This document shows, in pieces, positions 4,800 to 4,931 of a stretch of DNA of 33,152 bases. Below the pieces are notes generated by a model. The model was not told the DNA's origin and did not search any database. It saw only the letters and a program-made list of their open reading frames with translations. The stretch comes from a virus. The stretch spans positions 1 to 33,152 of the IMG/VR virus record IMGVR_UViG_3300031951_000722; one strand, written 5' to 3'. The translations under genes and the position numbers were made by a program. The stretch's first letter is position 1. Every line of letters begins with the position of its first letter.

Positions 4800-4830
4800 A
4801 AAAAAAGCCAGCAGGTGATAGACTACTGGC
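4800..4830 (-). terminator. Intrinsic terminator just before the helicase start
   Basis: On the minus strand, GCCAGTAG, an 8-nt loop (TCTATCAC) and CTGCTGGC make an 8-bp stem with one G.U pair, followed directly by T7 (complement of A4800-4806). The helicase start codon lies at 4789-4791, so any RNA that makes this gene must read through. Seven of the eight loop bases are complementary to the loop of the upstream hairpin (4863-4894). Confidence 0.8.
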
Positions 4831-4894
4831 TTAGGTGAAACAAAATGTAATTTGCTTCATGTTCCTTTGGAAAGCTATCACTCTGTCCAAAGGA
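4800..4894 (-). ncRNA. Candidate structured leader or small RNA with kissing loops
   Basis: A minus-strand RNA of about 95 nt would start near 4894, after the promoter element at 4899-4906, and stop at the terminator. Its first stem (TCCTTTGG with CCAAAGGA, 4887-4894 and 4863-4870) is 8 bp and perfect, with a 16-nt loop. That loop holds GTGATAG (4881-4875), the exact complement of CTATCAC (4821-4815) in the terminator loop. Between the hairpins is a 9-codon reading frame, MKQITFCFT (4831-4860), whose stop codon touches the terminator stem. AAGGA precedes its ATG by only 2 nt and lies within the 3' arm of stem 1. It may be an attenuator controlling the helicase or an independent regulatory RNA. 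No known RNA family is recognised. Confidence 0.45.
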
Positions 4895-4898
4895 TATA

Positions 4899-4931
4899 CA
4901 AAGATAAACTATTTTTAATTCTTTTCGCCAA
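4899..4931 (-). promoter_or_regulatory. Candidate Bacteroidota-type promoter for the helicase leader
   Basis: The minus strand carries TATCTTTG (4899-4906), matching the -7 consensus TAnnTTTG. A TTG lies 22 bases upstream (complement of CAA, 4929-4931). The spacing is longer than the 19 bases seen at the main divergent promoters but within the range reported for Flavobacterium. The predicted start, about 4892-4895, coincides with the first base of hairpin 1. Confidence 0.4.

Follow-up and report, generated by a model that had tools for sequence, protein, structure and literature searches.

A conserved three-hairpin RNA with complementary loops in environmental phages, a candidate switch or small RNA

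A structured RNA of about 95 nt is predicted from positions 4906-4800, minus strand, of the 33,152-base virus record analysed here over its full length (the window). Comparison with related sequences indicates that the element is real and conserved, and is made of three hairpins. It occurs in many related environmental phages, and has the appearance of an RNA switch or small RNA not described before. Pairing between the loop of the first hairpin (H1) and the loop of the third (H3), a kissing interaction, is strongly supported by covariation and appears to be under selection. The window derives from a tailed phage. Terminase, holin, endolysin and tail genes lie on the plus strand; the early region, which includes an HNH endonuclease gene, lies on the minus strand. 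The features relevant to the element are the following.

7772-7386, minus strand: gene for an SSB-like protein, early region
5154-4915, minus strand: conserved gene of about 79 codons, stop codon just 5' of the promoter; used as bait for relatives (90 relatives in viral_contigs)
4906-4899, minus strand: promoter -7 box TATCTTTG, TAnnTTTG, Bacteroidota sigma-A type (direct reading)
4894-4863, minus strand: H1, 5' hairpin at the predicted transcription start (fold; covariation among 38 relatives)
4881-4875, minus strand: H1 kissing-loop segment GUGAUAG, complementary to 4821-4815 (covariation)
4860-4831, minus strand: 9-codon frame MKQITFCFT, ATG(AAGCAAATTACATTTTGTTTCACC)TAA, present and judged not functional
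4859-4836, minus strand: H2, middle hairpin of 9 bp, GAAGCAAA/UUUGUUUC (fold)
4832-4800, minus strand: H3, intrinsic terminator, a 10-bp hairpin (4832-4805) with T7 (4806-4800) (fold)
4821-4815, minus strand: H3 kissing-loop segment CUAUCAC, complementary to 4881-4875 (covariation)
4791-2977, minus strand: HNH-helicase gene (Pfam HNH PF01844, ResIII PF04851), ATG 8 nt 3' of the U-run
2398-1502, minus strand: replication initiator gene (RepO/DnaD-like) of the downstream operon (PHROGs 2880, 270, 678, 186; HTH_36)

The TATCTTTG box, the 5' hairpin at the predicted start and the terminator with its T7 run had all been pointed out in a previous reading of the window made without database searches (the sequence-only reading), and are borne out by direct reading and by the fold. 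The box has the TAnnTTTG form of Bacteroidota sigma-A promoters. In Flavobacterium psychrophilum such a box occupies -12 to -5 (PMC9723704), which sets the predicted +1 at 4894, 5 nt past the last base of the box and on the first base pair of H1. In 62 of 68 copies, 4-5 nt separate the box from H1. It is the promoter type, and nothing else in the window, that suggests a Bacteroidota host for the phage. The RNA would consist of the three hairpins with little free end, and would finish at the U-run. Its predicted fold has an energy of -38.4 kcal/mol (z -6.5), and none of 200 shuffles folded equally well. The stem of H1 reads CCTTTGGA/TCCAAAGG. A leader of two hairpins had been described; both are real, but there are three in total, H2 having been overlooked.

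Relatives were gathered by using as baits the terminase (80 loci) and the 79-codon gene (another 80 loci). Copies of the element were sought by a descriptor scan, then by a covariance model (R1) built without the kissing pairs, then by pattern scans. In all, 77 copies corresponding to 58 distinct sequences were examined. The element was found in each of the 13 phage records tested, and almost all copies of the 79-codon gene with an identity of 63% or more are followed by it. The sequence-only reading had staked itself on related phages carrying both hairpins and the loop complementarity, and the relatives do keep both. It had recognised no known family in the element, and searches of Rfam 15 at gathering and relaxed thresholds agree, as nothing exceeded the cut-off (best match P14, 26 vs 45 bits). 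We are dealing with a structured RNA family lacking an Rfam counterpart, and broadly distributed in one group of environmental phages. BLASTN searches against named phages returned chance fragments only, and literature searches on kissing loops and structured RNAs in phages yielded no matching RNA. The helicase, used as bait in viral_contigs, retrieved no relatives. The element was not found in 56 loci of cellular genomes hosting distant homologues of the upstream gene, nor in 395 genomes sampled within the phylum to which a Bacteroidales anchor belongs, a search run with stricter filters and therefore weak as evidence. Distant relatives of the 79-codon gene reside in genomes of Proteobacteria and Acidobacteria, among them Pseudomonas aeruginosa PA7, and the RNA is absent nearby. 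Three fetched loci (L082, L083, L086) end within the element, the 3' side being cut off, as if assemblies break at a shared boundary.

The three hairpins are maintained in the alignment of 38 distinct relatives, where 97% of the cells of the 29-pair structure are paired. The covariation score of the whole structure is 0.579, vs 0.230 after shuffling; slid controls did not exceed 0.15. In H1, 97.4% of cells are paired, and changes on both sides occur in seven of nine pairs; in H3 seven of eight pairs covary, and the hairpin is followed by a U-run in every aligned copy as in the window, the hallmark of intrinsic (Rho-independent) terminators. Pairing in H2 (95.8% of cells) is accompanied by GU exchanges. 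G.U pairs are common in both H2 and H3 across relatives, a signature at the RNA level. The H2 stem is the most conserved sequence of the three hairpins (column diversity 0.11-0.20). This stem, AACAA/UUGUU in the family, is far more constant than the stems of H1 and H3, and may be a protein-binding site. Unpaired positions are mostly variable (diversity 0.64 before H1, 0.59 in the H2 loop, 0.56 in linker 1), and the two linkers are short, with medians of 2 and 4 nt.

In the window, GTGATAG (4881-4875) in the H1 loop and CTATCAC (4821-4815) in the H3 loop are exact 7-nt complements engaging seven of the eight bases of the H3 loop, as the sequence-only reading had stated. The reading had rated the match as hardly fortuitous, and had placed loop kissing at the centre of the element; covariation across relatives supports it on both counts. 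The H1 and H3 loops are complementary in all 77 copies, over 6 nt in two, 7 in 55, 8 in 15 and 9 in five. At each of the seven loop-loop pairs both partners vary among the 38 distinct relatives, and pairing is kept in 97.7% of cells. When loops of different copies were paired randomly, complementarity of at least 7 nt was observed in 11% of the trials (227/2000), vs 75 of the 77 real copies. Since the first descriptor required complementarity, the test was repeated on matches of the model which the descriptor had missed. Four copies (L088, L090, L097, L092) were found in this way by a model ignoring kissing pairs, and all keep the complementarity. It largely ends at the loop edges, which argues for a loop-loop helix rather than for an alternative long stem. 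That six to nine exact pairs survive such extensive change implies that the interaction itself is selected. The loop sequences define at least 19 types, among which GUGAUAG, GUGCAAG, GUAGCAG, GUAGACA, GUGGAGA, GUCGAGC and CUGGACA; GUGAUGUAC is the loop type found in another phage group. Loop types differ in 90% of 20 pairs of loci in which the upstream genes are 94-97% identical. Other potential targets of the loops in the genomes of the same phages number 82 vs 71 expected, and the lack of a clear excess makes it most likely that the partner of each loop is the other loop. No association was seen between loop type and downstream gene, one loop type occurring with several families. The central interaction of the element thus rests on strong covariation, and the many natural, already-paired variants may be exploited to assay the effects of loop-loop pairing on intrinsic termination or RNA dimerisation.

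The genes following the element are manifestly heterogeneous. In the 70 copies tabulated, the next start codon lies 5-26 nt past the U-run, and the downstream genes fall into nine unrelated families, at least eleven when two in a tail operon are included. ParB-like/N6-N4 methylases, Dam methylase, an AP2-HNH protein, the HNH-helicase, MUG113/GIY-YIG-like proteins and RepO are among them. The HNH-helicase directly follows the element in the window, as the sequence-only reading noted, but no specific link ties the two, and its position is incidental, judging from the variety of genes found in its place. The element marks what would be a regulatory module ahead of exchangeable methylase, HNH, GIY-YIG-like, helicase and replication genes. 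None of the 77 copies has a TAnnTTTG box between the start of the element and the next gene. The gene would therefore need read-through of H3, unless another promoter type is used. In one locus (L124, 5420-5490) the RNA has been naturally lost, and an HNH gene begins about 45 nt past the retained TATCTTTG box. In two records from a different phage group (G411 and G409), the element is part of the tail operon, where a tail gene and the tape-measure gene lie on either side. The corresponding copies (L242:5792-5894 and L244:3583-3685) each precede a different gene without Pfam match, and resemble moron-like cassettes. Two copies with different loops, each before its own operon, reside in L101 and in L249, the second directly before RepO. 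In L249 (1070-2967) the two elements flank a methylase gene and a 151-codon gene, possibly encoding a nuclease. A third record (G012) also has two copies, and may be an assembly of two phages. The idea that two loop types in one genome serve to avoid cross-talk was considered and set aside as not significant, loop types being many and such cases only two or three.

The sequence-only reading had envisaged either a read-through attenuator or an RNA of about 95 nt pairing via its loops, and both options find support. We tentatively favor, with slightly less than even confidence, a transcription-attenuating leader which also releases a stable three-hairpin small RNA, and in which kissing sets the level of read-through. 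According to this view, transcription would begin with the first base of H1 and mostly end at H3, yielding a compact RNA of about 95 nt with structured ends. A minority of transcripts would continue past H3 into the gene that begins a few bases on, making H3 the attenuator of an operon of accessory and replication genes. The working of the element would require pairing of the H1 and H3 loops, and the loop-loop helix, formed within one RNA or between two copies, would alter the formation or the persistence of H3, thereby setting read-through. Conservation of kissing in the copies retrieved by the model ignoring it, the constant closeness of the start codon to the U-run in front of nine unrelated families, and the presence of the element before single genes in the tail operon of another phage group all favor such a leader, as do the double copies of L101 and L249 and the promoter left behind in L124. 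The box, the fold, the terminator, the kissing and the lack of a further TAnnTTTG ahead of the gene are read from the sequence; transcription, read-through and the influence of kissing on termination are inferred. Given the placement of the element, H3 would attenuate whatever follows, unless the genes use a promoter type unrecognised here. Downstream genes could indeed use such promoters, and a 5' end on H1 together with the strong structure also fits an RNA which is itself the product. A classical antiterminator is not apparent, as the 5' arm of H3 pairs upstream in the nascent folds of only one of the 38 members. A straight cis complex, its two stems formed and stacked, would span a median of about 74 A, beyond the linkers' reach of about 66 A; the linkers are too short in 33 of 38 relatives, by a crude estimate drawn from helix rise and linker lengths which ignores bending. 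The excess length speaks for dimerisation, or for bending or fraying of the cis form. In a further reading, which we regard as rather unlikely, the terminated RNA may act as a self-antisense switch, using its two complementary loops to bind nascent leaders that share its loop type and so to regulate read-through. If so, terminated RNA would build up with the copies of the phage genome, and would control read-through into replication and accessory genes. Loops would be identity tags, sparing cross-talk among co-infecting relatives or between two operons of one phage, which would explain why loop letters turn over and complementarity is kept.

A different scenario, to which we assign about one chance in three, sees the element as an autonomous small RNA of the phage, forming dimers or higher oligomers. 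H1 of one copy would kiss H3 of another and vice versa, generating a closed two-fold complex endowed with a job in trans, either the binding of a host or phage factor through the conserved H2, or a decoy function. The position before genes would simply be where an RNA fits between operons. The 5' end on H1 and the 3' terminator delimit a self-contained RNA, which stays while downstream genes change; the H2 sequence is the most conserved, and the loops, having no excess of targets elsewhere, seem made for each other. In a dimer both bases of one molecule would be on the same side, as the short linkers permit, whereas the straight cis complex is too long in 33 of 38 relatives; the crudeness of the geometry weakens the point. 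Against an autonomous RNA, a start codon always follows the element within a few bases, in varied genomic settings, with no recognised promoter left for the gene, and the L124 locus retains the promoter without the RNA. Moron-like positions (cassette starts, the tail operon, the second copy before a replication gene) may hint at a portable boundary in which promoter and terminator insulate an inserted cassette, and kissing only stabilises RNA or terminator with no regulatory effect. This is improbable, because a cassette with a terminator right behind its own promoter would be silenced, and because of the selection implied by the exact loop pairs. A riboswitch whose kissing complex is stabilised by a metabolite ligand would suit a leader position and a terminator; it is very unlikely, as a conserved, pocket-like unpaired core is missing, no pathway is common to the downstream genes, and Rfam offers no match. 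We give still less credit to an element working at the DNA level, such as origin hairpins, or a packaging or recombination site. Its position before the replication module and the exchange of downstream genes at the boundary could be so explained, but promoter and U-run are oriented, G.U states are frequent in the stems, some genomes host two copies, and the site differs in another phage group.

Least credible of all is control by ribosomes translating the 9-codon frame. The frame exists in the window, as had been noted by the sequence-only reading, which considered a ribosome at its stop codon as the switch. The ATG of the frame comes just after AAAGGA. An ATG frame is present in only six of 38 relatives, a frame with any start codon in 14, and neither length nor residues are conserved as would be expected of a leader peptide. 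As a family-wide mechanism, ribosome-controlled attenuation is refuted.

Beyond an intrinsic terminator and a Bacteroidota promoter, the element fully displays the defining features of no known class. The phage-encoded pRNA of phi29, of about 174 nt, assembles through intermolecular contacts which include loop-loop pairing. ROOL and GOLLD, phage-encoded RNAs of several hundred nt, also assemble by intermolecular contacts including loop-loop pairing (PMC12286853). All are much larger than the 95-nt element, which is without Rfam match. Attenuators of the pT181 type, found in plasmids, share with it a leader location, kissing hairpins, an intrinsic terminator and loop specificity, yet need an antisense RNA, and an antiterminator capturing the 5' arm of the terminator (PMC4878617). 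In the element complementarity is internal, and an antiterminator is not conserved. In the satellite phage P4, the leader-derived CI RNA (with seqA/seqC), complementary to other parts of the same leader, stops transcription prematurely, before the replication genes. It is excised from a longer transcript and ensures lysogenic immunity (PMC4825925). In the element the complementary segments are two hairpin loops within one RNA, and termination looks intrinsic; integrase and recombinase domains (PF00589, PF00239) are absent from 13 of the phage records, several of which are incomplete. The IsrK small RNA of Gifsy-1 has two forms, one short and terminated, the other a read-through mRNA on which the first acts in trans (PMC4825925). 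Like the element, IsrK is a phage RNA with its own promoter and terminator, and the terminated and read-through forms would share the leader. It differs in being a translational switch at a single Salmonella prophage locus, for which the sections on which we draw describe no comparable H1-H3 kissing (PMC4825925); sequence relation was compared through Rfam only. The layout of the element is compatible with a short RNA and a read-through mRNA of the IsrK type, both made from one promoter.
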